DNA of 64,000 bases from Halorussus marinus (GTDB lineage Archaea; Halobacteriota; Halobacteria; Halobacteriales; Haladaptataceae): positions 186,001-250,000 of the forward strand of contig NZ_SBIV01000001.1 of NCBI RefSeq assembly GCF_004765795.1. Direction: 5' to 3'. The notes under the pieces were generated by a model, which saw only the letters and a list, made by a program, of their open reading frames with translations, was not told where the DNA came from and made no database searches. This document shows positions 5,279 to 34,251 of this stretch, piece after piece (position 1 is the stretch's first letter; every line of letters begins with the position of its first letter). A program made the position numbers and the translations under genes.

Positions 5279-6229
5279 ATGAAGCTATCCGTGGTGGTTC
5301 CGACGCTCAACGGGCGCGAGCGCCTCGCGGTGTGCCTCGACGCGCTGGCGCTCCACGCCCCCGACGCCGAGGTCATCGTCGCCAACGGGCCCTCGGCCGA
5401 CGGAACCACCGGGATGGTCCGGGAGCGCGAGGACGTCGACGTGCTCGTGGAGGTCGCAGACAGGAAGCTGAACGTCGCTCGGAACGCGGGCATCGCGGAG
5501 GCGACCGGCGACGCGATCGCGGTGATCGGGCAGGACACGATCGTCGAGGCGACGTGGGCCGACGCGGTCCGGGAGGCGCTGGCCGACGCGGCGGTCGTCA
5601 CCGGCCCGGTCCACCGCGCGGTGCGGGCGGGGATGACGACCGAGTCCGTCGAGCGCCGCACGATCCGGGGCCGGGAGGTCACCTACTTCGACGGGGGCAA
5701 CGTCGCGTTCACCCGGGAGGCGATCGAGGCCGTCGACGGGTTCGACGAGTATCTGGCGACCGGCGGCGCCCGCGACTGCGCCCACCGGCTGGCGGGCGCC
5801 GACTACGAGGTCGTCTGGTCGCCGACCGCCTGCGTGACCCGCGAGGACGAGGAAGACGACCGAGACGACCGCGACTGGGGCTGGAAGTACCGCGCGCTCG
5901 CCTACCGCCTGGTCAAGAACTACGGCCCCCGTCCCGGAATCTTCGGGCGGACCGGCCGCGACGCGGCCGCCGACGCGATCGAGAGCGCCGCCGACGTGGT
6001 CCGGGGCGACGGTGCGCCGTCGACGTGGTTCGGCAACGGCAAGCGCGTGCTCGTCAACGCGGCCATCGGCTCGAAGGACGGGTTCGTCGCCCGACTCCGG
6101 GACCGCACCGAGACCCACAACCCCTACGGGTTCTCCTCGCGGGCCGATCGGGCGGTCGAGCGCTACGACTGGCGCGAGTCGGATCGATCGGACGCCTCGA
6201 CGGTCGCGTCCGACGCGTCCGGGCGGTGA
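5279..6229 (+). CDS. Family 2 glycosyltransferase
   Basis: 316 residues. The GT-A fold is clear: MKLSVVVPTLNGRERL, DAEVIVANGPSADGT, then LNVARNAGIAEATGDAIAVI and the acceptor region GGNVAFTREAIEAVDGFDE. The usual DxD is represented by GQDT. There are no membrane segments, so it is a soluble enzyme making a glycan or glycolipid of unknown kind. A highly charged stretch (REDEEDDRDDRD) sits near residue 200. The ATG at 5279 is favoured by the TATA box; the TTG three codons earlier is not. Confidence 0.85.
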   Translation: MKLSVVVPTLNGRERLAVCLDALALHAPDAEVIVANGPSADGTTGMVREREDVDVLVEVADRKLNVARNAGIAEATGDAIAVIGQDTIVEATWADAVREALADAAVVTGPVHRAVRAGMTTESVERRTIRGREVTYFDGGNVAFTREAIEAVDGFDEYLATGGARDCAHRLAGADYEVVWSPTACVTREDEEDDRDDRDWGWKYRALAYRLVKNYGPRPGIFGRTGRDAAADAIESAADVVRGDGAPSTWFGNGKRVLVNAAIGSKDGFVARLRDRTETHNPYGFSSRADRAVERYDWRESDRSDASTVASDASGR

Positions 6230-6384
6230 CGCGGTCGGGACCGACCCGACCGCGCAGTCGGCCTTTTGAGTGACGGTTCGGGCGGTCGAGACGCTCTCGG
6301 ACGGCCTCGAACGCCGGTATTCGGCCCACACCCCGGCGGCGTTTCGGGGTCTCTCGAAGCGACTGCGCGGGGTGAAACGGTCGA

Positions 6385-6439
6385 AACGAACCGAAGATTT
6401 AAGTGACGAAACGAATGGGAACGAACCGCGAAGTTAAGT
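6385..6439 (+). promoter_or_regulatory. Duplicated promoter module
   Basis: Two imperfect 20-base copies, AACGAACCGAAGATTTAAGT (6385-6404) and AACGAACCGCGAAGTTAAGT (6420-6439), are repeated at a 35-base period. Each ends in a TATA-like element. The second is 26-32 bases before the ATG at 6465, giving a leaderless start; the first would start about 35 bases earlier. Confidence 0.45.
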
Positions 6440-6464
6440 CCGCACTCGGGGAAAATACGATCGA

Positions 6465-6833
6465 ATGGCGCTCGCAAATATAGATGCACACGAGCGAATC
6501 GACCGGTCCTATCGGCTTCTCGCCGACGTCCGCCGGCGACGCGTCCTCTACGCGCTGGAGGCGAACGACGAGATCACCGTCGACCGCCTCGCGGAGCGAC
6601 TCGCCCGGTCGGGGGTCGCCGAGAGCACCGAACGGGCGGCCGCGTCGCTCGTCCACACTCACCTCCCGAAACTCGCCGACGCCGGCGTGATCGAGTACGA
6701 ACGCGAGGCGGGCCTCGTCGCGGCCGACGACGGCGTCGCCGTGCTCGAACCGTTTCTGGACCGACCCCGCGAGATCGAACCCGACGTAGAACAGTGGTCG
6801 GTCGCCGACCACGCCTCCAGAGAAGTCTCGTAG
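6465..6833 (+). CDS. DUF7344-type winged-helix protein
   Basis: 122 residues. It starts with a conserved IDRSYRLLADVRRRRVLYAL helix followed by a winged-helix core (DEITVDRLAERLAR, HTHLPKLADAGVIEYE). This is the haloarchaeal HTH family that also has two membrane-anchored members at 43.6 and 46.4 kb; this one lacks membrane segments. It is likely a small DNA-binding regulator. The stop codon touches that of the convergent amidohydrolase with no gap. Confidence 0.75.
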   Translation: MALANIDAHERIDRSYRLLADVRRRRVLYALEANDEITVDRLAERLARSGVAESTERAAASLVHTHLPKLADAGVIEYEREAGLVAADDGVAVLEPFLDRPREIEPDVEQWSVADHASREVS

Positions 6834-7658
6834 TCACTCGCTCTCGGGCGAGAGGCCGTCGATGACTCGCGAGGGGTTCTTGTCGAACACTTTCCGCATC
6901 GCGTCTTCGGGCACGTCGAGGGTGAGTATCTCCATCACCGCCACGTTGGGGTGGGCCGACGGCGCACCGCTCCCGAACAGGACCCGATCGGGGTGTTCCA
7001 TCACCGCCCGCTCCAGCAGGTCCCGGTAGCGGACGTAGCTGGTGTCGAGATACCACTCGTCGTGGTGTTCGAGCATGTCGATGGCCTCGGTCATGAGTTC
7101 GCGGTTCAGCGGGTGGCCGCCGAAGTGTGCGAGCACGAGCGGGAACGACCGCGAGAGGAGCGTGTCCGCGACCGCACCGGGCGTGAACCCCTCGCCGGCG
7201 TGGACGAGGACCGGAAGGTCGACCGCCTCGAGCCGGTCGAGGGTCTCCTCGTCCGGGAGGCCGTCGGCGACGGGGTCGAGCTTGAACCCGTGAAACCTGT
7301 CGTCGTAGGCGTACTGCTCGACGTCCTCCGGCGAGGTGTGGTGTTCTTTTCGGCGCGCGGTCAGGTTTCGAAGCCGCGAGGAGGCCGTCTCACCGGGGTC
7401 TCGCGGTCCGTTGATCCGGGCGAAGGTGAGAAACGGTCGCTCGACGCTCCGGCGAGCCACCGCGTTGTTCGCGCTCACGTACCCGCCGTCGGGGCGCTCG
7501 CCCGGGAACACGACCGACCGCACCACGCCGGCCTGGTGCATCTCTCGTTCGAGTCGGTCGGGGCTGATGGCCCGTCCGAGCGTCTGCACGCCGCCCGCGT
7601 CCGCGTTCAGGCGGGCGTGAACGTCCACCACCCGAAACCGGTGCTCCAGCTCCAGCAT
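6834..7658 (-). CDS. Amidohydrolase-family (TIM-barrel) protein
   Basis: 274 residues. The start FRVVDVHARLN is a modified form of the DxHxH metal site (here D-V-H-A-R, with the second histidine missing). LPVLVHAGEGF, LVLAHFGGHP and VLFGSGAPSAHPNV supply the later histidines and the usual DxP-like position (S-G-A-P). It resembles amidohydrolase_2 (decarboxylase-like) proteins. The missing first-strand histidine and the altered last motif suggest an unusual metal site or loss of catalysis. Substrate is unknown. Confidence 0.7.
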   Translation of the reverse strand: MLELEHRFRVVDVHARLNADAGGVQTLGRAISPDRLEREMHQAGVVRSVVFPGERPDGGYVSANNAVARRSVERPFLTFARINGPRDPGETASSRLRNLTARRKEHHTSPEDVEQYAYDDRFHGFKLDPVADGLPDEETLDRLEAVDLPVLVHAGEGFTPGAVADTLLSRSFPLVLAHFGGHPLNRELMTEAIDMLEHHDEWYLDTSYVRYRDLLERAVMEHPDRVLFGSGAPSAHPNVAVMEILTLDVPEDAMRKVFDKNPSRVIDGLSPESE

Positions 7659-7808
7659 CGAGTGAGAGTTGGGAGCTACGCTATTTTTCAGTGTCGGTTG
7701 CGCCCGATACGGAGAGAACGGATCGGCGATCCGGACCCGGCGGGGGCCTCGTAGCCGAGGACGGAAAAATCGAGTCGTCGCCGTCCCGGGTGTCGCCCGG
7801 ATCGGCGG

Positions 7809-10036
<2,228 letters not shown>

Positions 10037-23888: not shown

Positions 23889-24719
23889 TCAGTTCCAGGG
23901 GCCGAAGTCGGGGTCGACCTGTCGCTCACGGGTGTCGATCGACTCGATCTTTGCGACGTCTTCGTCGTCGAGGTCGAGGTCGCGGGCGCCCCAGTTGTCG
24001 AGGATGTGCTCCTCGCTGGTCGCCTTCGGGATCGCGGCGACGCCGTCGCGCTGGAGGAGCCACGCGAGGCTGACCTGCGCGGGCGAGGCGTCGTGCTTCT
24101 CGGCGACGTCCTGAATCTCGGGCACGTCGAACACTTCGCCGCGGGCCAGCGGCGAGTACGCCACGAGGTTGATGTCGTGTTCGCGGCCGTACTCGACCAG
24201 TTCGTCCTGCGGGAGCAGGGGGTGCATCTCGACCTGATTCGCGAATACGGGCGCGTCGAGGATCTCGCGGGCCTCGTCGAGGTGGCGCGGCTCGAAGTTC
24301 GAGACCCCGACGTTCTCGATCAGTCCCTCCTCGTAGAGCTGATCGAACGCCGAGAGGGTGCCCTCGGGGTCGTACTCGTTGGCGGGCCAGTGGACGTACA
24401 GCAGGTCGACGTAGTCGACCCCGAGCTTGTCGAGGCTCTCCTCGGCCGTCGAGAGCACGTCGTCGTGGGCGAGGTTGCTCGTCCAGATTTTGGTGGCGAG
24501 GAACACGTCCTCGCGGTCGACGTCGGCGGCGGCGATCCCCTCGCCGACCGACTCCTCGTTGTCGTAGGCCTGCGCCGTGTCGATGTGTCGGTACCCCGCT
24601 TCGAGCGCGGTCCGGACGCTCTCTGCACACTGGTCGCCCTCGGTGTTCTGCCACGTTCCGAGACCGAGTCGCGGCATCTCGTCTAACATCTCGTCGTCGG
24701 TGAGTTCAGTCGAAGCCAT
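23889..24719 (-). CDS. Aldo/keto reductase
   Basis: 276 residues from the ATG at 24719. The NADP-dependent TIM barrel shows PRLGLGTWQNTEGD, the catalytic Asp/Tyr in HIDTAQAYDNEESVGEG, the lysine in VFLATKIW, the histidine in LYVHWPANEYD, and LIENVGVSNFEPRHLDE. IPKATSEEHILDN binds the cofactor phosphate. It reduces aldehydes or ketones in the cytoplasm; the substrate is unknown. It is divergent from the Bat-type regulator 153 bases away, which may control it. Confidence 0.9.
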   Translation of the reverse strand: MASTELTDDEMLDEMPRLGLGTWQNTEGDQCAESVRTALEAGYRHIDTAQAYDNEESVGEGIAAADVDREDVFLATKIWTSNLAHDDVLSTAEESLDKLGVDYVDLLYVHWPANEYDPEGTLSAFDQLYEEGLIENVGVSNFEPRHLDEAREILDAPVFANQVEMHPLLPQDELVEYGREHDINLVAYSPLARGEVFDVPEIQDVAEKHDASPAQVSLAWLLQRDGVAAIPKATSEEHILDNWGARDLDLDDEDVAKIESIDTRERQVDPDFGPWN

Positions 24720-24823
24720 AGCGTCCCGGTCTTGGATCAGCCGGGGGAAAGTGGTTTCGACAACGGAAATCCGCGCCGTGAGCCGTCGGCGCCCGCTCGC
24801 AGTACCTGCCGGAACCGAAGGAA

Positions 24824-24834
24824 ATATTTTTAAC
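24824..24834 (+). promoter_or_regulatory. TATA box for the Bat-type regulator
   Basis: ATATTTTTAAC is 39-49 bases before the ATG at 24873 but only 12-22 before the ATG at 24846, so it decides in favour of the later start. Confidence 0.5.
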
Positions 24835-24872
24835 CCGGCTACCGTATGTGGCTCAATAGCAAGGTCAGAGCG

Positions 24873-25574
24873 ATGATAGACACCACGCTGGACATCGAGC
24901 AGTACGACTGTCCCTTCATCGCCACCACCGACGAGCACGGCGTCGGCTTCTCGGCCATCCAGTGGGACTTCGACCGGGTCGAAGACCGACTCGAGACTCG
25001 GATGGTCGTCGAGGCCGACGACCGCGAGGCGCTCACGGTCGGACTCTCGGCGCTCCGGGACCGGGAGAACGTCCGCGAGTACGGGCTGTTGACCCGCCGG
25101 GGGAACGTCGCGCACATCCGCACCGTCATCGGCGAGACCGACGCGATGGCCGCGATCAGGGACAACGGCGGCTACATCACGGGGCCGTTCTACATCGAGG
25201 ACGGTAGCGAGATCTGGCACGTCGGCTTCGACGACGTCGAGGCCGCCGACACCACCCTCTCGGAGCTCGAACGCGACAACGAGTTCGACGTGCTCGACCG
25301 CGAGAACACCGAGCTCCCCGAGATGCAGGACTTCGTCCAGAACGCGGGCGCGGCGATGACGCTCATCGAGGGGTGTCGGGACCTCTCGGACGTCGAGCGC
25401 CAGACCCTCGAGACCGCGGTCTCGGACGGCTACTTCGAGAGCCCCCGCGGGGCGACGCTGGGCCACCTCGCCGACGAGTTCGACGTCTCGAAGCCCGCGG
25501 TCTCGAAGAACCTCCGGCGGGGCCAACAGAAGATGATCCAGCGAGTCATCGAGGCGATGGACGAACTGGAGTGA
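24873..25574 (+). CDS. Bat-type helix-turn-helix regulator
   Basis: 233 residues from ATG 24873 (MIDTTLDIEQYDCPF); the earlier ATG at 24846 is too close to the TATA box. Residues 1-150 form an acidic sensing region with VGFSAIQWDFDR. The C-terminal HTH_10 domain (LETAVSDGYFESPRGATLGH, then FDVSKPAVSKNLRRGQQKM) is the bacterio-opsin activator type found across haloarchaea. It probably responds to a small molecule. The aldo/keto reductase to the left and the SDR to the right (stop 2 bases away, convergent) are candidate targets. Confidence 0.85.
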   Translation: MIDTTLDIEQYDCPFIATTDEHGVGFSAIQWDFDRVEDRLETRMVVEADDREALTVGLSALRDRENVREYGLLTRRGNVAHIRTVIGETDAMAAIRDNGGYITGPFYIEDGSEIWHVGFDDVEAADTTLSELERDNEFDVLDRENTELPEMQDFVQNAGAAMTLIEGCRDLSDVERQTLETAVSDGYFESPRGATLGHLADEFDVSKPAVSKNLRRGQQKMIQRVIEAMDELE

Positions 25575-25576
25575 GC

Positions 25577-26425
25577 CTACTCGTAGGTCAGCGTCATCCC
25601 GCCGTCGAAGCGCAGGTCCCCGCCGTTGAGGTGACTCGCGTGCCGGGAGAAGCCGAACGCGAACAGGTTCGCGACCTCCGCGGGCGCCATCATCTCGTCG
25701 GTCCGCGACTGGCCGAGCATCACGTCCTCGACGACCTCCCGAACCGAGACGCCCCGCTGGTCGGCGGTCTCCGGTATCTGGTCGGTCACGAGCGGCGTCT
25801 TGACGTAGCCCGTACTGACCGAGAACGACCGCACGTCGCCGTCGCCCTCGGCCGCGATCGACTGGGTGAGCCCCCGAAGTCCGAACTTCGCGACGTTGTA
25901 CGCGACCTTGTCGGCGGTCGTGTAGTGGCCGTGGACCGACGCCATGTTGCCGACACAGCCGAACCCGCGCTCGCGCATCCGGGGCAGGCAGTGCTTGGCG
26001 AGTTCGACCGGCGCGCGCACCATCACGTCCTGCATCGCGTCGTAGACGTCCATCGGAAACTCCTCGATGGGATCGACGTGTTGCATCCCGGCGACGTTCG
26101 CGAGGAAGGCGACGGTTCCGTGGTCGGCGGCCGCCTCGACGATCTCGGGAACGTCTTCCCGGAGGTCGCCCGCGACCGTCTCGACCCGGCCCTCGACGCC
26201 GAGTTCCGCGGCCGTCTCGACGGTTCCGTCGAGCCCGGCCTCGTCGATGTCCGTGGCCACGACGGTGAGCCCGTTCGCGGCCATCGCGAGCGCGGTCGCC
26301 CGCCCGATGCCGGAGGCCGCGCCCGTCACCAGACAGACGTTCTCCGGGGTGAATCGGTCGTCCTCGAGCACGAGAAAGTCCTCGAGCGAGAGTTCCGGCA
26401 CGTCGATGTGGTCGGCGTCGGACAT
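25577..26425 (-). CDS. Short-chain dehydrogenase (3-hydroxybutyrate dehydrogenase-like)
   Basis: 282 residues. After a 28-residue N-terminal extension comes the nucleotide site CLVTGAASGIGRAT, then VVATDID, where the aspartate favours NAD, FLANVAGMQHVDPI, and the active site GNMASVHGHYTTADKVAYNV with catalytic Ser, Tyr and Lys. The order of motifs resembles D-3-hydroxybutyrate dehydrogenases. The extension (ELSLEDFLVLEDDRFTPEN) is unusual. It is divergent from the ABC transporter operon, with a palindrome in the shared control region. Confidence 0.85.
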   Translation of the reverse strand: MSDADHIDVPELSLEDFLVLEDDRFTPENVCLVTGAASGIGRATALAMAANGLTVVATDIDEAGLDGTVETAAELGVEGRVETVAGDLREDVPEIVEAAADHGTVAFLANVAGMQHVDPIEEFPMDVYDAMQDVMVRAPVELAKHCLPRMRERGFGCVGNMASVHGHYTTADKVAYNVAKFGLRGLTQSIAAEGDGDVRSFSVSTGYVKTPLVTDQIPETADQRGVSVREVVEDVMLGQSRTDEMMAPAEVANLFAFGFSRHASHLNGGDLRFDGGMTLTYE

Positions 26426-26453
26426 ACCTCCCTACGCGAACCGAATCAGTGAA

Positions 26454-26466
26454 TAACCGCGGGTTA
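26454..26466. promoter_or_regulatory. Palindrome between the SDR and the ABC operon
   Basis: TAACC-GCG-GGTTA, 29-41 bases before the SDR start and about 80 before the ABC operon start. It overlaps the AT-rich region where the SDR TATA box should be. Candidate operator. Confidence 0.35.
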
Positions 26467-26543
26467 ATTGATGAATGCGAGACAGTGCTTCACATGTTAA
26501 CCCCGCAAACTTTGCCGGATAGAACGCCTCTGTTCGACTCGTC

Positions 26544-27971
26544 ATGGTGGACGACAGCGTTTCACGGCGGCGATGGCTCACTGCACTCGGCGGGGCCGGT
26601 GTGGCCGGACTCGCCGGCTGTACGGGCGGCGAGGGCGAACAGGAGACGACGACCGACGGGACGACTACGGAAGGCGACTCAGGCATGACGGAAACGACGG
26701 CGACGACGACCGAACAGGCGACCGCGTCGGGCGCGGTCAAGATCGGGGTGCTCCAGCCGACCTCCAGCGACCTCCAGTACTACGGGAAACAGGCGCTGTG
26801 GGGATTCTACTCCGGGCTGGCGTACAAGGGCGACACCGACCCGATCGACAGCGCGAGCACGGGGACCTACACCACGTCGGTCGGCGACGTCGACTACGAA
26901 CTCGTGGTACGGGACACCCAGTTCGCGGCCGATCGGGCCCAGTCGCTCGCGACCGATCTCGTCCAGAGCGAGGACGTAGACATGCTGTTCGGCTGTGCGT
27001 CGTCGGGGGCGGCCAACCGCGTCATCAACACGGTCGCGAAGCAGGCCCAGGTGCCGTACATGGTCGGGCCCGCGGCGTCGGCCGACGTGACCGCGAGCGG
27101 CGAGACCTGCGGCGACCTCGTCTTCCGCGCGAGCGAGAACACCGCGATGGACGCCCGGTCGGGCGGCAAGTACGTCGCCGAGGAGACCGACGTGAGCTCG
27201 GTGTACCTGTTCGGCGCCGACTACTCGTTCGGCCGGGCGGTCGTGAACAACTACGAGCAGGTCCTCCGCGAGGAGGGCGTCGAGATCCTCGACAAGAAGT
27301 TCGTCCCGCAGGGGTACTCCGAGTGGGAGGGACTGCTCGACAACGCCCAGGACGCCGGGGCGGAGGGCATCGTCGGCGGGTTCACCGTCGCGACGCTCCC
27401 GAAACTGTTCACCGCGTTTCTCAACGGCGACTACGACTACCGGGTGTTCGGCGGCCTCGCGACCCGGATCACCAATCAGGTCGTGGGCCAGACCCTCCAG
27501 AAGGCGCTCGGGGACCTGACCGCCGAGAAGATCGCCGACGCCAAACTCGGCCCGTTCACGACGCGGTACCACTGGAACCAGTACGAGAACGACATCAACG
27601 CCGAGTTCGTCGAGACCTACACCGACACCTACGGCGTGGTGCCGGACCTGTTCACGTCGGGGTGTTTCACCGCGGCGTCGGCCATCTCGCAGGCGGTCAC
27701 CGAGAGCGGCTCGACCGAGGGCGCCGACATCGCTCAGGCCCTGCGCGGGATGACCGTCCGAGACACCCCGAAGGGCGAGGGCGGCTACACGTTCCAGGAG
27801 TACAACAATCAGGCCCGGTCGGCGATGACCGTGGCCGATCTCGTGCCGACGAGCGACGAGTGGGCCGACAACTGGGACGCGGCCGTGATGCCGAGCGAGC
27901 CCCTCTCGACTATCGGGAAGGACAAGACCACGATCCCCGCCGAGGGGAACCAAATGGGCTGTTCGCTGTAG
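26544..27971 (+). CDS. ABC transporter substrate-binding lipoprotein (Peripla_BP_6 type)
   Basis: 475 residues. The start has twin arginines ([16 protein letters not shown]) and a lipobox LAGC, so it should be exported by Tat and anchored by lipid at Cys28. A Thr/Glu-rich linker (residues 30-60) leads to a two-lobed binding domain beginning [17 protein letters not shown], with [20 protein letters not shown]. The family binds branched-chain amino acids, urea, amides or aromatic acids. It is the first gene of a six-gene operon with two ATPases, two permeases and a condensing enzyme. Confidence 0.92.
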
Positions 27972-27973
27972 GC

Positions 27974-28789
27974 ATGCTGCGGACTGCCGGACTGACGAAG
28001 GAGTTCGGCGGCCTCACGGCCGTCGACGACGTCGATTTCGAACTCGAAGACGGCGAACTCTGCTCGCTCATCGGGCCGAACGGCGCGGGCAAGACGACGT
28101 TCTTCGACCTGCTGACGGGCGTACTGACCCCCACGCGGGGAACCATCGAGATCCGAGCCGACGAGGGGTGGCGCGACGTGACCGACGCGACGCCCTACGA
28201 GGCCGCGAACCTCGGACTCCACCGGTCGTACCAGATCACCAACGTCTTCCCGACGAGCACGGTGCTGGAGAACGTCCGGATCGCGGCTCAGGCCGCCAGC
28301 GCCGACGGCGCGAAGCTCTGGCGCAACGCCGGGGCGTTCGACGCCCACATCGAGGAGGCCCGCGCCATCCTCGACCGGGTCGGGCTCGCCGACGAGGCCG
28401 AGGCGACCGCCGACAGCCTGAGCCACGGCGCGAAACGCCAGCTCGAAGTCGCCATCGCGCTCGCGGGCGACCCCGACGTGCTCTTGCTCGATGAACCGAA
28501 CGCCGGCGTCTCCTCCGAGAGCGTCGACCGCATCATCGAGCTCATCGAGGACGTCGCGACCGACCACGCGGTCCTGCTGGTCGAGCACAACATGGACATC
28601 GTGATGAACGTCTCGGACCGCATCGTGGTCCTGAATCAGGGCGCGGTCATCGCCGACGGTCCTCCGGAAGACGTGCGGGGCGATCCCGCGGTCCAAGAGG
28701 CGTACCTCGGCGGCTACGAGGCCGGGAGTCTGCGCCGCGAGGCCGAAAGCGAAACCGCCGGGACCGACCCGGAGGAGGGGACGGCGTGA
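27974..28789 (+). CDS. LivG-type ABC transporter ATP-binding protein
   Basis: 271 residues. Walker A is [12 protein letters not shown], the Q-loop is [10 protein letters not shown], the signature is [16 protein letters not shown], Walker B is [14 protein letters not shown] and the switch is [11 protein letters not shown]. The long insert after the Q-loop and the EAYLGGYE end are LivG traits. The ATG is 2 bases after the stop of the binding-protein gene. It pairs with the LivF-type subunit to drive import. Confidence 0.92.
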
Positions 28790-28829
28790 GCGCAGACGGA
28801 CCCACCGACTGCTCGAAGGAGCTGATCGA

Positions 28830-29528
28830 ATGACACTGCTCGAAGTCGAAGACGCCCACACCTACTACGGCGAGAGCCACATCCTCGAAGGCGTCTCGCT
28901 CGAAGTCGAGGAGGGCGAGGTCGTCGCGCTCGTCGGCCGGAACGGGGTGGGCAAGACCACGACGCTCCGAACCGTCCTCCAGCTCACCCCGCCCCGGCGC
29001 GGGACCGTCCGGCTCCGCGGCGAGGACGTGACCGGCCGGGAGACCCACGAGATCGCCGACCGCGGCGTCGGCTGGATCCCCGAGGAGCGACGCATCTTCG
29101 CACAGCTGTCGGTCGAGGAGAACGTCCGGGTCGCGGTCCCCGACGGGCGGGCGGTCGGCGCGGCGCTCGACCGCGCGTTCGAGACGTTCCCCGACCTCCG
29201 GGACCACCGGAGCCGGGACGCCGGCACCCTCTCGGGGGGCCAACAGCAGATGCTCGCGCTGGCCCGCGGGCTGGTCGGAGACAACGACCTGCTTCTGGTC
29301 GACGAGCCAAGCGAGGGGCTCGCGCCGCTGATCGTCGAGCGCGTCGCCGAGGCGCTGGCCGACGCGGCCGAGGACACCACCCTCCTGCTGGTCGAGCAGA
29401 ACCTCCCGCTGGCGCTCGATCTGGCCGACCGCTTTTACGTGATCGACAACGGCTCGGTCGTCGACGAGGGGGACGCCGCCGAGACGTCCGCCGACGACGA
29501 GCGGCTCAGGAGGTATCTCTCGGCATGA
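28830..29528 (+). CDS. LivF-type ABC transporter ATP-binding protein
   Basis: 232 residues. It opens with EDAHTYYGESHILEGVSLEV, the LivF hallmark, and has Walker A VGRNGVGKTTTLR, the signature DAGTLSGGQQQMLALARGL, Walker B DLLLVDEPSEGLAP and VEQNLPLALDL as the switch region, where Gln-Asn replaces the usual histidine. GGAG lies about 9 bases before the ATG. The start is 40 bases after LivG, and the stop overlaps the LivH ATG. Confidence 0.92.
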   Translation: MTLLEVEDAHTYYGESHILEGVSLEVEEGEVVALVGRNGVGKTTTLRTVLQLTPPRRGTVRLRGEDVTGRETHEIADRGVGWIPEERRIFAQLSVEENVRVAVPDGRAVGAALDRAFETFPDLRDHRSRDAGTLSGGQQQMLALARGLVGDNDLLLVDEPSEGLAPLIVERVAEALADAAEDTTLLLVEQNLPLALDLADRFYVIDNGSVVDEGDAAETSADDERLRRYLSA

Positions 29529-30580
29529 CGGGGGTCGCCGTCGGCGCGGTCGGGCTCGACTCGGCGCTCGCCGACCCCGTCGTGCTCGCGGGCTTCGTCG
29601 ACGCGCTCGCGGAGTTCCTCCGGCCGCGCAACCTCGCGTCGGTGTTCGTCGACGGCCTCGCGAAGGCCGCGCTGTACGTGATGATCGCCGGCGGGCTCAC
29701 TCTCATCTTCGGCCTGATGGGCGTCCTGAACTTCGCCCACGGCTCGATGACGATGATCGGGGCGTATCTGGGCGGCCTGCTGATGGTGTTGGCGGTCGGG
29801 CAGGCCACCGGCGACGCGGCGCGGCTCGCGCTGTTTTTCGTCGCGCTCGCGGTCACGTTCGCGGCCCTCGCCGGGCTCGGGGGCGCGATCGAGATCGGGC
29901 TTGTCAGGCGGCTCTACGACCGGCCGCCGGTGTACCAGATCCTCCTGACCTTTGGGGTCACGCTCGTGCTCGACGAACTCGTCCGCATCGTGGTGCTGTT
30001 CTACGGGATGCAGCCCACCAGCGACTGGCAGGCCGCGCTCGCGACCAAGCCCGGCGTCCTCGACTCGTCGGTCGATCTCGGACTCGTCTCGGTGCCGGGC
30101 CTCGACCTGTTCGAGATCGCGATCGGCGCGCTCACGGTCGCGGGACTGTGGGCGTTCCTCACGAAGACCCGGTACGGGCTGATGATCCGGGCCGGTAGCG
30201 AGGACGCCGAGATGACCGAGGCGCTCGGGATCGACGTCCGCCGGGTGTTCACGGTGGTGTTCGCGCTCGGCGCGGGCGTCGCCGGCGTCGCCGGCACCCT
30301 GCTGATGTGGGACGGCTCGTGGGCCGCCAGCGTCCCGCTCGCGGCCGACACGCTCCTGCCGGCGTTCGTCGTGGTCATCATCGGTGGGCTCGGCACCTTC
30401 CGGGGCACCGTGGTCGCCGCCCTCATCGTCGGGATGGCCGACGCCGTCACGACGTGGTGGTTCGTCAACGAGATCGAGTTCTCGGGACTGCCCGAGATCA
30501 CCATCTTCCTCATCCTCGTGGTGATGTTGATCCTCCGGCCCCAGGGGCTGTTCGGCGTCGAGGAGGTGGGCGGCCATTAG
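29525..30580 (+). CDS. LivH-type ABC transporter permease
   Basis: 351 residues with about eight membrane helices. The conserved segment FGLMGVLNFAHGSMTMIGAY marks LivH permeases, and GSEDAEMTEALGIDVRRVF is the cytoplasmic coupling loop that meets the ATPase. A 45-residue N-terminal region before the first conserved helix is longer than usual. The ATG overlaps the LivF stop (ATGA). The 3' end carries the Shine-Dalgarno for LivM. Confidence 0.92.
   Translation: MTGVAVGAVGLDSALADPVVLAGFVDALAEFLRPRNLASVFVDGLAKAALYVMIAGGLTLIFGLMGVLNFAHGSMTMIGAYLGGLLMVLAVGQATGDAARLALFFVALAVTFAALAGLGGAIEIGLVRRLYDRPPVYQILLTFGVTLVLDELVRIVVLFYGMQPTSDWQAALATKPGVLDSSVDLGLVSVPGLDLFEIAIGALTVAGLWAFLTKTRYGLMIRAGSEDAEMTEALGIDVRRVFTVVFALGAGVAGVAGTLLMWDGSWAASVPLAADTLLPAFVVVIIGGLGTFRGTVVAALIVGMADAVTTWWFVNEIEFSGLPEITIFLILVVMLILRPQGLFGVEEVGGH
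30562..30568 (+). promoter_or_regulatory. Shine-Dalgarno that sets an ATT start for livM
   Basis: GGAGGTG, fully complementary to the 16S anti-Shine-Dalgarno, is 7 bases before ATT at 30576. No ATG, GTG or TTG occurs in that frame until 30675, inside the first membrane helix. Confidence 0.5.
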
Positions 30581-31868
30581 CGCCGAAACCGCGGACGCCC
30601 CGCCCGAGACCGACTCGGAGACGGCGGCGTCGTGGCCCGTCCGGTACCTCCGCGAGCACCTCGCGCACCTCGCGGTGATCGCCGTCTTCGCGGCGTATCC
30701 GGGGCTCTACTCGGTGCTGGTGAACTCCCCGGTCGGCGCGGAGATGGAGACGGTCCTGCCGCAGGTCGAGACCATGGTCGCGGTGCTTTACTTCGGCCTG
30801 TTCGCGATGTCGTTCGACTTCATCAGCGGCTACACGGGGTATCTCTCGTTCGGGCACGCCGCCTTCTACGGCACCGGGGCGTACTTCGTCGTGCTCGCGG
30901 CCAACGGCAAGATACCCCTGCTCGGGCCGGACACGTCGTTTGTCGCCTTGCTCGTGATCGGCGGGCTGATCGCGGTCGGGCTCGCGGTCCTCATCGGCGC
31001 GGTGTCGTTCCGGCTCACCGGCGTCTACTTCGCGATGATCACGCTCGGGTTCTCGCAGGTGCTGTACGTGCTGGTCCGCGACTGGGGGTATCTGGCGTCG
31101 AACCCCCGGGACGGCCCCGCGGTGCTCGGACGCACCGAGCCGTTCTCGATCGGCGTGCCGGGCGTCGACTCGCTGGACCTCGCGATCGGCCAACTCGCCG
31201 GCGAGAGCGTCGAGGGGCTGTTGGGCGTGCTCGAGTTCACCGCGACCGAGGTGTCGTACTACATGATCGGGCTCGTCGTGCTGGCGTCGTACTTCGCGAT
31301 GCAACGAATCATCCACTCGCCGTTCGGCAAGGTGCTGATCGCGATCCGGGAAAACGAGGAGCGCGCCGAGGCCATCGGCTACAACACCTTCTGGTACAAG
31401 CTCGGTGCGTTCGCGGTCAGCGCCTTCTTCGCCGCGGTGGCGGGCGGCCTGCTCGCGGGGTTCCGGCGGTCGGTCTCGCCCGACGGCACCTTCTACTTCC
31501 TGGTGACCGGCGACGCGCTGTTGGCCTCCATCATCGGCGGGTTCGGCACGCTCGCCGGCCCGCTGTACGGCTGGCTGTTCGACGAGGGGGTCACCGAGTT
31601 CCTCTCGAAGCGCGGGGAGGGCGGCGGCCTGCTCCCTTACCTCCGGGACAACCTCGGGGAGGGACTGCTCTCGACCGAGGTGTTCGACGGCCTCACGGTC
31701 GGGGAGGCGATCAACACCTTCCTCAACGGCCACGCCGAACTGTACATCGGCGTGCTGTTCGTGCTGTTCGTCCTCTTCGTGCCGAGCGGACTCCTCGGCA
31801 CCGTCCGCGACCGGGTCGGCGGTCCGGTCGGCGAAGCGATCGCCAGCCGGCTACGGGGTGAGCGATGA
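30576..31868 (+). CDS. LivM-type ABC transporter permease, probable ATT start
   Basis: 430 residues if begun at ATT 30576 (ISAETADAPPETDSE...). The next usual start, GTG 30675, would cut off the basic cytoplasmic end and begin in the middle of the first helix. The strong Shine-Dalgarno and overlap with the LivH TAG support ATT. About ten helices are visible with LivM motifs SGYTGYLSFGHAAFYG and IRENEERAEAIGYNTF. A long insert (residues 300-390) carries a polar loop. The stop overlaps the FabH-like gene (ATGA). Confidence 0.85.
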   Translation: MSAETADAPPETDSETAASWPVRYLREHLAHLAVIAVFAAYPGLYSVLVNSPVGAEMETVLPQVETMVAVLYFGLFAMSFDFISGYTGYLSFGHAAFYGTGAYFVVLAANGKIPLLGPDTSFVALLVIGGLIAVGLAVLIGAVSFRLTGVYFAMITLGFSQVLYVLVRDWGYLASNPRDGPAVLGRTEPFSIGVPGVDSLDLAIGQLAGESVEGLLGVLEFTATEVSYYMIGLVVLASYFAMQRIIHSPFGKVLIAIRENEERAEAIGYNTFWYKLGAFAVSAFFAAVAGGLLAGFRRSVSPDGTFYFLVTGDALLASIIGGFGTLAGPLYGWLFDEGVTEFLSKRGEGGGLLPYLRDNLGEGLLSTEVFDGLTVGEAINTFLNGHAELYIGVLFVLFVLFVPSGLLGTVRDRVGGPVGEAIASRLRGER

Positions 31869-32896
31869 CCGACCCCGCGCCGACGGTCGGGCTCACCGGC
31901 TACGGTACCTACGTCCCGGACGGCGTCGTCACCGGCGAGGAGATCGCCGCCGAGAGCGGCGTCCCCGAGGACGTGGTGGTCGAGAAGATGGGCGTCCGCG
32001 AGAAGCGGGTCTGTCCGCCCGACGCCGACCACGCGACCGACATGTGCGTCTCGGCCGCCGAGGCGGCGCTCGCGGACGCCGGCCTCGCGCCCGCGGACGT
32101 CGATGTGGTGCTGTATCACGGGAGCGAGTACAAGGACTTCTACGTCTGGAGCGCCGCCGCCGACGTCGCCGAGCGACTCGGCGCCGACGAGGCGTTCGCG
32201 GTCGAGAGCTACGCGCTGTGTGCGGGCGCGCCGCTCGCGCTCCGACAGGCGAGGGCCCAACTGCGCGCCGACGCCCCCGAGACGGCGTTACTCGTGGCCG
32301 CGAGCCGCGAGGAGGACCTCGTCGACTACGCCAACGAGGACGCCTCGTTCATGTTCAACTTCGGGAGCGGGGCGTGCGCGATGGTGCTGGAGTCCGAGCC
32401 GGGCGAGCGCGCTCGCGCTACGCTCGGGGAGAGCGCCGCGATCACGGACGGCAGTTTCTCCGAGGACGTGGTAATGCCCGCGGGCGGCTCGCGGAACCCG
32501 CCGAGCACGGCGACGGTCGAGCAGGGACTGCACACGCTCGACGTGCCCGATCCCGACGGGATGAAAGAGCGCCTCGGGGCGGTGAGCCTCCCGAACTTCC
32601 TTCGGGTGGCCGACGACGCCCTCTCGCGGTCGGGCTACGACCGCTCGGACCTGGACTTCGTGGCGCTCACCCACATGAAGCGGTCGTTCCACGAGTTGCT
32701 GGTCGAGGAACTCGACGCGGCTGACTACTACCTCGACGAGTACGGCCACGTCCAGAGCGTCGATCAGGTGCTCGCGCTCGACGCGGCGCTCGACCGCGGC
32801 CTCGTCGAATCCGGGGACCTCGTCTGCTTTCTCGCGGCCGGGACCGGCTATACGTGGGCCGCGACGATTCTGGAGTGGCGCGGCGACGGTGCGTGA
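31865..32896 (+). CDS. FabH/KAS III-like condensing enzyme with altered active site
   Basis: 343 residues with the thiolase-fold ketoacyl synthase III layout: Cys119 in YALCAGAPLAL, His270 in VALTHMKRSFHE, and the C-terminal CFLAAGTGYTWAATI. At the place of the catalytic Asn in FabH (YGN-TSAAS), this protein has YGHVQSVDQ, so His295 replaces Asn. It is last in the ABC operon with a 4-base overlap and so is made with the transporter. It may join an acyl-CoA to the imported compound or its product. It is unlikely to serve fatty acid synthesis, which haloarchaea lack. Confidence 0.82.
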   Translation: MTDPAPTVGLTGYGTYVPDGVVTGEEIAAESGVPEDVVVEKMGVREKRVCPPDADHATDMCVSAAEAALADAGLAPADVDVVLYHGSEYKDFYVWSAAADVAERLGADEAFAVESYALCAGAPLALRQARAQLRADAPETALLVAASREEDLVDYANEDASFMFNFGSGACAMVLESEPGERARATLGESAAITDGSFSEDVVMPAGGSRNPPSTATVEQGLHTLDVPDPDGMKERLGAVSLPNFLRVADDALSRSGYDRSDLDFVALTHMKRSFHELLVEELDAADYYLDEYGHVQSVDQVLALDAALDRGLVESGDLVCFLAAGTGYTWAATILEWRGDGA

Positions 32897-33003: not shown

Positions 33004-34251
33004 GTGAACGAGGAGAAGTTTCAGTTCTACGCGCTGTATCTCACGCGGTTCGCCAGCGGCTTCGGGTTCATCACGCTGGTGACCCTGCTCCCGACGTACG
33101 TGAACCTCTTCGACGCCTCGAACCTCGTCGTCGGGCTGTTCACGACGGCGTTCACGCTCGCCCAGACCGCGGCTGTCGTCCCGCTGGCGTGGGCGGGCGA
33201 CCGCGGGGACAAGCGGCTGGTGCTGGCGGGCTGTCTCGGGCTCGCGGCCGTGACATACGTCGCGTTCGCGCTCGTCGGGTCGAGCCTCCAGTTCGTGGCC
33301 GCCCGGGCGCTTCAGGGCGTCGCGGTCACCGGCACCGGGCTGATGTCGCTCGCGCTGATCGGCGAACTCGCGCCCGCCGACGCCCGGGCGACCCACATCG
33401 GACGGGCAAACGCCGCCCGGTTCGGCGCGAGCATCCTCGGCAGTCTCGGGGCGGGGAGCCTCCACGGGCTGTACGGCTTCGAGGCGGTGTACGCCGTCCT
33501 CGTCGGCCTGCTCTTGCCCGCGCTGGTCGGGGTCTGGTGGTTCGTCGACAGCGACGGGACGACGATCGCCGGCAACCCCTTCGCCGGCCTCGCGTTCAAC
33601 CGACGACTGCTCACTCTCACGAGCTTTCGTGCCCAGTACGCGGTCGCGGTCACGCTGGTCCGGACGTGGGTCCCCCTCTACGCCGGGCTGGAGGTCGCCC
33701 GCGGCGGGCTCGGGTACACGGAGACGGCGCTCGCGGTGAGCCTGCTCATCACCGCCGAGAAGGCCACCAACATGCTGTGTCAGCCCTACACGGGCCGGCT
33801 CTCCGATCGGGCGGGCCGGTCGCTGTTCGTGTTCGTCGGCGGCGGCCTCTACGGGCTGGTCGCGCTCGCGGTGCCGTTCACCCCCGCGATCGGCTCGTTC
33901 GTCGGCGCGCCCGAGACGTTCCCGGTCGTCGGAACGCTGTCGGCGGCGTTCCTGCCGCTTTTGACCTGTAACGCCCTGCTCGGTGTGGCCGACAGCCTCC
34001 GCGAGCCCGCGAGCATGGCGCTGTTCGCCGACGAGGGCACCGAGGACGGCTCGGTCGCCTCCAGCTTCGGCATCCGGGAGCTGGTCTGGCGGCCCGGGAG
34101 CGTGCTCGCGCCGATGCTCGGCGGCGCGCTCATGGGCGTCGGGATGCAGTGGGTGTTCTTCGTCGGCGCGGGGGCGGCCTTTAGCGGGATCCTCACGTTC
34201 TTCGGCATCCTCGCGCGCGACCACGGCGCTCGGGCGCTCACGCAGTGGTAA
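33004..34251 (+). CDS. MFS transporter
   Basis: 415 residues from a GTG. Twelve hydrophobic helices are visible with the MFS loop 2-3 motif PLAWAGDRGDKRLVLAG and the middle-loop analogue QPYTGRLSDRAGRSLFVF. The N-terminus NEEKFQFYALYLTRFASGFG is cytoplasmic. The substrate is unknown; the fold family covers drugs, sugars and acids. A T-rich box lies about 30 bases upstream. No partner gene is close. Confidence 0.88.
   Translation: MNEEKFQFYALYLTRFASGFGFITLVTLLPTYVNLFDASNLVVGLFTTAFTLAQTAAVVPLAWAGDRGDKRLVLAGCLGLAAVTYVAFALVGSSLQFVAARALQGVAVTGTGLMSLALIGELAPADARATHIGRANAARFGASILGSLGAGSLHGLYGFEAVYAVLVGLLLPALVGVWWFVDSDGTTIAGNPFAGLAFNRRLLTLTSFRAQYAVAVTLVRTWVPLYAGLEVARGGLGYTETALAVSLLITAEKATNMLCQPYTGRLSDRAGRSLFVFVGGGLYGLVALAVPFTPAIGSFVGAPETFPVVGTLSAAFLPLLTCNALLGVADSLREPASMALFADEGTEDGSVASSFGIRELVWRPGSVLAPMLGGALMGVGMQWVFFVGAGAAFSGILTFFGILARDHGARALTQW

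Follow-up and report, generated by a model that had tools for sequence, protein, structure and literature searches.

In Rhodopseudomonas palustris, the COG0683 substrate-binding proteins (SBPs) designated 'branched-chain amino acid' binders have mostly aromatic, fatty or dicarboxylic acids as ligands, and a cluster of such proteins beside the pim beta-oxidation operon matches the preference of the pim acyl-CoA ligase (PMC3223731). In the Shy-Sal system, which acts on the steroid side chain, a hydratase works together with a retro-aldolase of thiolase fold (PMC12329534). The current work concerns an operon of the archaeon Halorussus marinus, located in a stretch of 64,000 nucleotides (contig NZ_SBIV01000001.1, positions 186,001 to 250,000 of the forward strand; hereafter the window), in which genes for an SBP, two ATPases (LivG, LivF) and two permeases (LivH, LivM) are followed by the gene of a KASIII-fold enzyme of the NF005308 family, here termed KS. 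The arrangement of a HAAT-type importer with a CoA ligase is known; the widespread version with a KASIII-fold enzyme is new. The most surprising single feature is the conserved AUU codon at which LivM is predicted to start. There is a reasonably good probability that LivM is translated from AUU over the stop codon of LivH throughout Halobacteria, probably in coupling with LivH, and that KS acts on C-C bonds with a new specificity, as part of a pathway that archaea and bacteria have in common.

The haloarchaeal module resembles the HAAT cluster by pimFABCDE in that COG0683 SBPs and ABC transporter genes stand beside genes for an acyl-CoA ligase and for beta-oxidation (PMC3223731). The pim operon is said to encode all beta-oxidation enzymes for fatty and dicarboxylic acids, whereas here a KASIII-like enzyme would take the C-C step; a further difference is that the haloarchaeal and bacterial modules include an alpha/beta hydrolase as well as a regulator of the Bat or TetR type. 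With Shy-Sal, the module would share the succession of a hydratase, here of the MaoC type, and a C-C cleaving enzyme of thiolase fold (PMC12329534), but Sal belongs to another thiolase-fold family than KS and has a DUF35 partner.

A scan of genome contigs yielded 46 loci with KS relatives, 41 of which were used as haloarchaeal loci. The order SBP-LivG-LivF-LivH-LivM-KS is kept in most of them, usually with a Bat-type regulator gene ahead (present in 32), and the transporter genes are found in 35 (SBP), 36 (LivG), 37 (LivF), 36 (LivH) and 36 (LivM) loci. In a survey of 391 Halobacteria genomes, with a threshold of E <= 1e-120 for the SBP, KS was present in 96 genomes, 94 of which also had the SBP; the two genes were linked, lying at most 9 kb apart on one strand, in 89. 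The Fisher values of co-occurrence, about 1e-54 to 1e-62, disregard common descent and serve as a gauge of association only. The operon is genuine and extends beyond the Halorussus marinus genome, and a chance neighbourhood is ruled out by the kept gene order and the co-occurrence. The original prediction had asked for the same order in other haloarchaea and would have been abandoned had the FabH-like gene stood beside the transporter in one genome only; the order was found, and the linkage in 89 genomes removes that objection.

Two genes overlooked by that prediction adjoin the operon in most haloarchaeal loci, namely an AMP-forming (AMP-binding) acyl-CoA ligase (28/41) and an alpha/beta hydrolase (24/41). 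Ligase and KS occur together in 94 of the 96 KS-bearing genomes. In Halorussus marinus the ligase gene lies on another contig than the operon (G000:C2:117473-119071), with the hydrolase gene adjacent; the two orthologues show 64% and 66% identity, respectively, and a divergent gene for a MaoC-type hydratase stands beside the pair (L144:10852-11358). The module is split over two contigs in this genome. Family models and solved structures place the ligase near medium/long-chain and feruloyl-CoA synthetases rather than acetoacetyl-CoA synthetase, and the haloarchaeal hydrolase lies closer to 3-oxoadipate enol-lactonase and to esterases. In Haloarcula-type clusters (L146-L151), the series Bat-SBP-LivGFHM-hydrolase-ligase is kept and KS is missing. 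The co-occurrence of ligase and KS, together with the attachment of ligase and hydrolase to several SBP clusters lacking KS, makes the ligase the likelier CoA-coupling enzyme. The idea of an uptake-plus-metabolism module survives in outline, in the linkage of importer and KS, but the proposal that the condensing enzyme itself couples the imported acid to CoA is not supported, a dedicated ligase being the better candidate.

Several other gene arrangements were observed around these enzymes. A probable PAS-type sensor kinase gene is located downstream of the ligase in L146-L151; a 641-amino-acid gene beside the KS-less clusters was considered as a KS substitute and rejected, its sequence reading by eye as a PAS sensor kinase. 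In the Halovenus loci L051, L058 and L061, KS directly follows an alpha/beta hydrolase gene with no importer or ligase nearby, an arrangement that suggests a tight hydrolase-KS link. A second pair of hydrolase-like (45% identity) and ligase-like (36%) genes occurs in the Halorussus marinus genome at G000:C2:484000-500000 (L145, about 5563-9220), and genes for a glutamine-amidotransferase-like protein and an acyl-CoA dehydrogenase come after it; this set is possibly a paralogous acid pathway.

In the LivM gene of the window, no ATG, GTG or TTG occurs in frame ahead of the conserved hydrophobic segment at the N-terminus; GTG 30675, the first canonical codon in frame, already falls inside this segment. 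LivH-LivM junctions of L032-L074 and L146-L165 were compared with that of the window (30576-30580), giving 56 haloarchaeal junctions. In 52 of them the LivH stop forms part of an ATTAG whose ATT is in the reading frame of LivM; the entire open frame contains no canonical start in 21 of these loci. The remaining four have ATG (L056, L065, L152) or TTG (L163) in the same position, as is evident in the aligned sequences GGATGAGCGCCGAGA and CCATTAGCGCCGAGA, which read M-S-A-E and I-S-A-E, respectively. The linker past the ATT differs between loci in both length and sequence, but the frame is always kept; it is acidic and has a G+C content at third codon positions of 0.86. TAG terminates 52 of the 56 LivH genes as against 17% of other genes, and CAT, the codon preceding it in the window, accounts for just 8% of the His codons used by these operons.

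The conserved in-frame ATTAG, with ATG or TTG at the same place elsewhere, implies a conserved AUU start for LivM, and the LivM of the window most likely begins at ATT 30576. About a dozen loci also contain an in-frame GTG two codons upstream of the ATT and several contain a downstream GTG; the case for AUU is therefore strongest where neither is present. The main alternative, a +1 frameshift fusing LivH and LivM, is less likely, because four loci have ATG or TTG at this place and because, by reasoning, tRNA-His would not re-pair with AUU. In the two RefSeq records checked, LivM starts 148 and 253 nucleotides past the LivH stop, in frame with the ATT; automatic annotation appears to truncate LivM in at least these records. 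An AUU start codon is also that of bacterial infC. The latter is a gene of a translation factor, whereas LivM is a permease gene overlapping the preceding gene, across Halobacteria. A literature search for ATT starts in haloarchaea found no report, which does not prove their absence.

With the NCBIfam model NF005308/PRK06840, KS scores 414.6 bits, above the cut-off of 315. The designation of this family, '3-oxoacyl-ACP synthase' (ACP, acyl carrier protein), rests on annotation, and a literature search by model name found no paper, a result that does not prove that none exists. The AlphaFold2 model of KS (mean pLDDT 94.3) has the KASIII fold, and a structure search with it found FabH, BioZ and PqsD nearest (Z about 38-39), at an identity of 18-26%. 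KS shares with these enzymes the fold, Cys and His: C119 and H270 align with the Cys and His of FabH. The Cys-His-Asn triad of FabH is, however, incomplete, since H295 stands at the Asn position in every NF005308 member examined by alignment. KS also fell short of the FabH cut-offs (TIGR00747, 113 vs 292 bits; PRK09352, 127 vs 249 bits).

In HMG-CoA synthase, a Glu is catalytic. E88 of KS, in the motif GSEYKD, aligns with this Glu position (GSESHP), where FabH has no Glu; by alignment only, the Glu, Cys and His of HMG-CoA synthase are thus all matched in KS. HMG-CoA synthase nevertheless forms a separate clade, and KS is far under its cut-offs (TIGR00748, 43 vs 353 bits; TIGR01835, 25.5 vs 360 bits). 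That KS is the HMG-CoA synthase of the cell itself is ruled out by this separation and by another gene of that type at G000:C4:59850.

Members of the same family were found well outside the haloarchaea. NF005308 was over cut-off in 22 of the 251 genomes of a Chloroflexota sample, in 2 of the 250 genomes sampled around a Vulcanisaeta genome (5 at a looser E-value), in one Bipolaricaulota genome and in the Thermus control. In the phylogenetic tree all NF005308 proteins constitute one clade, separate from FabH-like and HMG-CoA synthase sequences, and the haloarchaeal sequences are nested among bacterial ones. Chloroflexota and Bipolaricaulota neighbourhoods combine KS with ligase, hydrolase, a Liv-type importer and SBP, often with a short-chain dehydrogenase/reductase (SDR) or a TetR regulator; in the Thermoproteota neighbourhood, the same enzymes accompany an MFS transporter and an acyl-CoA dehydrogenase. 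In one Chloroflexota cluster the SDR passes TIGR01963, the model of 3-hydroxybutyrate dehydrogenase (348.6 vs 307), and the NCBIfam model nearest to the hydrolase is the intracellular polyhydroxyalkanoate (PHA) depolymerase, with a score under the cut-off.

Altered catalytic positions were seen in L105, L107, L109, L112-L114 and L116 of the Chloroflexota sample, with E88 changed to Met or Thr in some and C119 replaced in L113 and L116; H270 and H295 are retained in this group. Such relatives are probably functional subfamilies. A second KASIII-like protein with Tyr at the Asn position is encoded at L071:10360-11502 and in L120, in Bipolaricaulota and Thermoproteota, within Liv-type importer clusters that also contain ligase and SDR or hydrolase.

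The importer is of the HAAT type (Liv/Urt-like), with a Peripla_BP_6 SBP, two BPD_transp_2 permeases and two ATPases. All subunits scored under the urea-transporter and LivF/G/H/M equivalog cut-offs. The model of the SBP (pLDDT 94) is nearest in fold to acid-binding SBPs of R. palustris, and leucine and urea binders share this fold. For RPA4397, the nearest solved SBP, no ligand was found. The SDR of the window has 3-hydroxybutyrate dehydrogenase 6zzq as its nearest solved chain and fails the TIGR01963 cut-off (217 vs 307 bits).

These observations make it moderately probable that the operon and its partners form a catabolic module through which a carboxylic acid and/or an ester or lactone of it is taken up and activated. 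The importer would take up the acid; the alpha/beta hydrolase, unlinked in Halorussus marinus (G000:C2), would release it from an ester or lactone, and the AMP-forming ligase, also unlinked there, would form the CoA thioester and trap it. A series resembling beta-oxidation may follow, with hydration by MaoC and, in some genomes, an acyl-CoA dehydrogenase and/or the SDR, and KS would carry out the C-C bond step where a classical thiolase would act. A cleavage that shortens the chain, by a Claisen (thiolase-like) or a retro-aldol reaction, is favoured over a biosynthetic condensation. Gene content, order, co-occurrence, fold and residue alignment are directly established. Within this best-supported reading, the uptake and activation steps are drawn from family assignment and association, while we infer the catabolic direction, the order of steps, the reaction of KS and that the substrate is an acid and not an amino acid.

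Support for this reading comes from the kept gene order and the occurrence of both SBP and ligase in 94 of 96 KS-bearing genomes, from ligase and hydrolase adjoining the operon in most loci and forming an adjacent pair beside MaoC in Halorussus marinus, and from the same enzymes beside Liv-type importers in Chloroflexota and Bipolaricaulota and beside MFS and acyl-CoA dehydrogenase genes in Thermoproteota. The Chloroflexota cluster with its 3-hydroxybutyrate dehydrogenase and its depolymerase-like hydrolase (under cut-off) points in the same direction, as do the precedents of the R. palustris COG0683 SBPs with pim (PMC3223731) and of aldolases with thiolase fold that follow a hydratase (PMC12329534). 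Several points weigh against this reading. SDR and MaoC genes are each near KS in only a minority of the haloarchaeal loci, 14 of 41, and 42 of the 136 SBP-bearing genomes of the survey have no KS, which suggests that KS is dispensable for the role of the importer. The genomes share ancestry, and the Fisher values are not independent. Moreover, some bacterial KS relatives are without E88 and/or C119; the NF005308 family may therefore not share one reaction.

The nature of the C-C step admits an aldol variant, a tentative possibility of fairly low probability, in which KS, as an enzyme like HMG-CoA synthase, would act in aldol or retro-aldol direction on the 3-hydroxyacyl-CoA produced by MaoC and give acetyl-CoA and an aldehyde or ketone with no need for a dehydrogenase. 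The alignment of E88, C119 and H270 with the Glu, Cys and His of HMG-CoA synthase, the absence of SDR from most haloarchaeal loci and the pairing of hydratase and retro-aldolase in Shy-Sal agree with it; against it stand the different family and DUF35 partner of Sal, the lack in KS of the Asn common to HMG-CoA synthase and FabH, and the presence of Met, Thr or Asp in place of E88 in part of the bacterial and archaeal relatives. A biosynthetic or signalling module, in which KS would work as a condensing enzyme in the manner of FabH and turn imported acyl groups into a beta-keto product, would suit the KASIII fold, the nearness of FabH, BioZ and PqsD and the kept Cys and His. It is quite improbable, as the Asn of FabH is His in every member, no recurrent ACP or malonyl enzymes were seen in the loci, and importer and ligase indicate uptake.

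With regard to the substrate, import of 3-hydroxyalkanoates (PHA monomers or oligomers) would give a role to all four enzymes: the hydrolase would cut the ester, the SDR oxidise the free 3-hydroxy acid, the ligase activate the 3-oxo acid and KS perform thiolysis. The likeness of the window SDR to 3-hydroxybutyrate dehydrogenases and the Chloroflexota cluster described above accord with such a substrate, but the restriction of SDR genes to a minority of haloarchaeal loci, the distance of the ligase from acetoacetyl-CoA synthetase and the resemblance of the haloarchaeal hydrolase to enol-lactonase and esterases render it rather unlikely. Equally doubtful is an aromatic or phenylpropanoid acid such as cinnamate, whose side chain would be shortened by ligase, MaoC, SDR and KS, with the hydrolase as an esterase of phenolic esters. 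The SBP model is nearest in fold to the hydroxybenzoate and vanillate binders of R. palustris, and the nearest solved structures to the ligase are feruloyl-CoA and fatty-acyl-CoA synthetases; however, SBP identity to the aromatic binders is 15-23% within a fold that leucine and urea binders share, both kinds of synthetase score equally against the ligase, and no recurrent ring-cleavage genes stand beside the module. The RefSeq name of the permeases, branched-chain amino acid permease, is in line with an ordinary importer of branched-chain amino acids followed by an incidental gene. This explanation is very improbable in view of the association of KS with SBP and ligase, the recurrence of the same enzymes beside Liv-type importers in distant phyla and the other acids often taken by COG0683 binders.

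Features of the window are listed in the table. All nine genes named in the original prediction are present with the identities it gave, according to Pfam and NCBIfam profiles. Its close overlaps hold as genuine 4-base overlaps for LivF/LivH and LivM/KS; the corrected LivG start, in contrast, lies 2 nucleotides past the SBP stop, and LivF follows LivG after 40 nucleotides. Its gene set is retained for Bat, the importer, KS and, as an optional member, the SDR. The aldo/keto reductase (AKR) is excluded from the module, occurring in 3 of the 41 loci, those of Halorussus and a close relative; the MFS gene, found in 1 of 41, was likewise rejected. A cluster at L157:11100-18000 contains two Liv-type importers with a ligase-like gene in between.

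Table. Coordinates of the operon, its proposed LivM start codon and neighbouring genes in the window
Feature	Position	Strand	Basis and remarks
Aldo/keto reductase (AKR)	23889..24719	-	Pfam; neighbour outside conserved set; start probably 24719
Bat-type regulator, HVO_2525_N + HTH_10 domains	24846..25574	+	Pfam; usual gene just upstream of SBP
SDR, 3-hydroxybutyrate-dehydrogenase type	25577..26425	-	TIGR01963 217 bits, cut-off 307; optional module member
SBP, HAAT type, Peripla_BP_6	26544..27971	+	Pfam; model pLDDT 94
LivG-type ATPase	27974..28789	+	Family models; start corrected to ATG 27974
LivF-type ATPase	28830..29528	+	Family models
LivH-type permease, BPD_transp_2	29525..30580	+	Pfam; 3' end GGC CAT TAG
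LivM-type permease, BPD_transp_2	30576..31868	+	Proposed start ATT 30576 over LivH stop (ATTAG)
Proposed AUU start codon of LivM	30576..30578	+	Comparison of 56 haloarchaeal junctions
KASIII-fold enzyme (KS), NF005308 family, E88/C119/H270/H295	31865..32896	+	414.6 bits, cut-off 315
MFS transporter	33004..34251	+	Pfam; neighbour outside conserved set

NF005308, a family that crosses domains and is annotated only as 3-oxoacyl-ACP synthase, gains a genomic setting of importer, CoA ligase, alpha/beta hydrolase and often MaoC, which makes its substrate accessible to growth screens and binding assays. The Glu, Cys, His and second His on a KASIII scaffold may represent unrecognised C-C bond chemistry. 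If true, the AUU codon of LivM would be a rare non-canonical start of a transport gene, kept through a whole archaeal class. The automatic annotation of LivM would then have to be corrected, and the junction provides a simple reporter test for start-codon use and translational coupling in haloarchaea.

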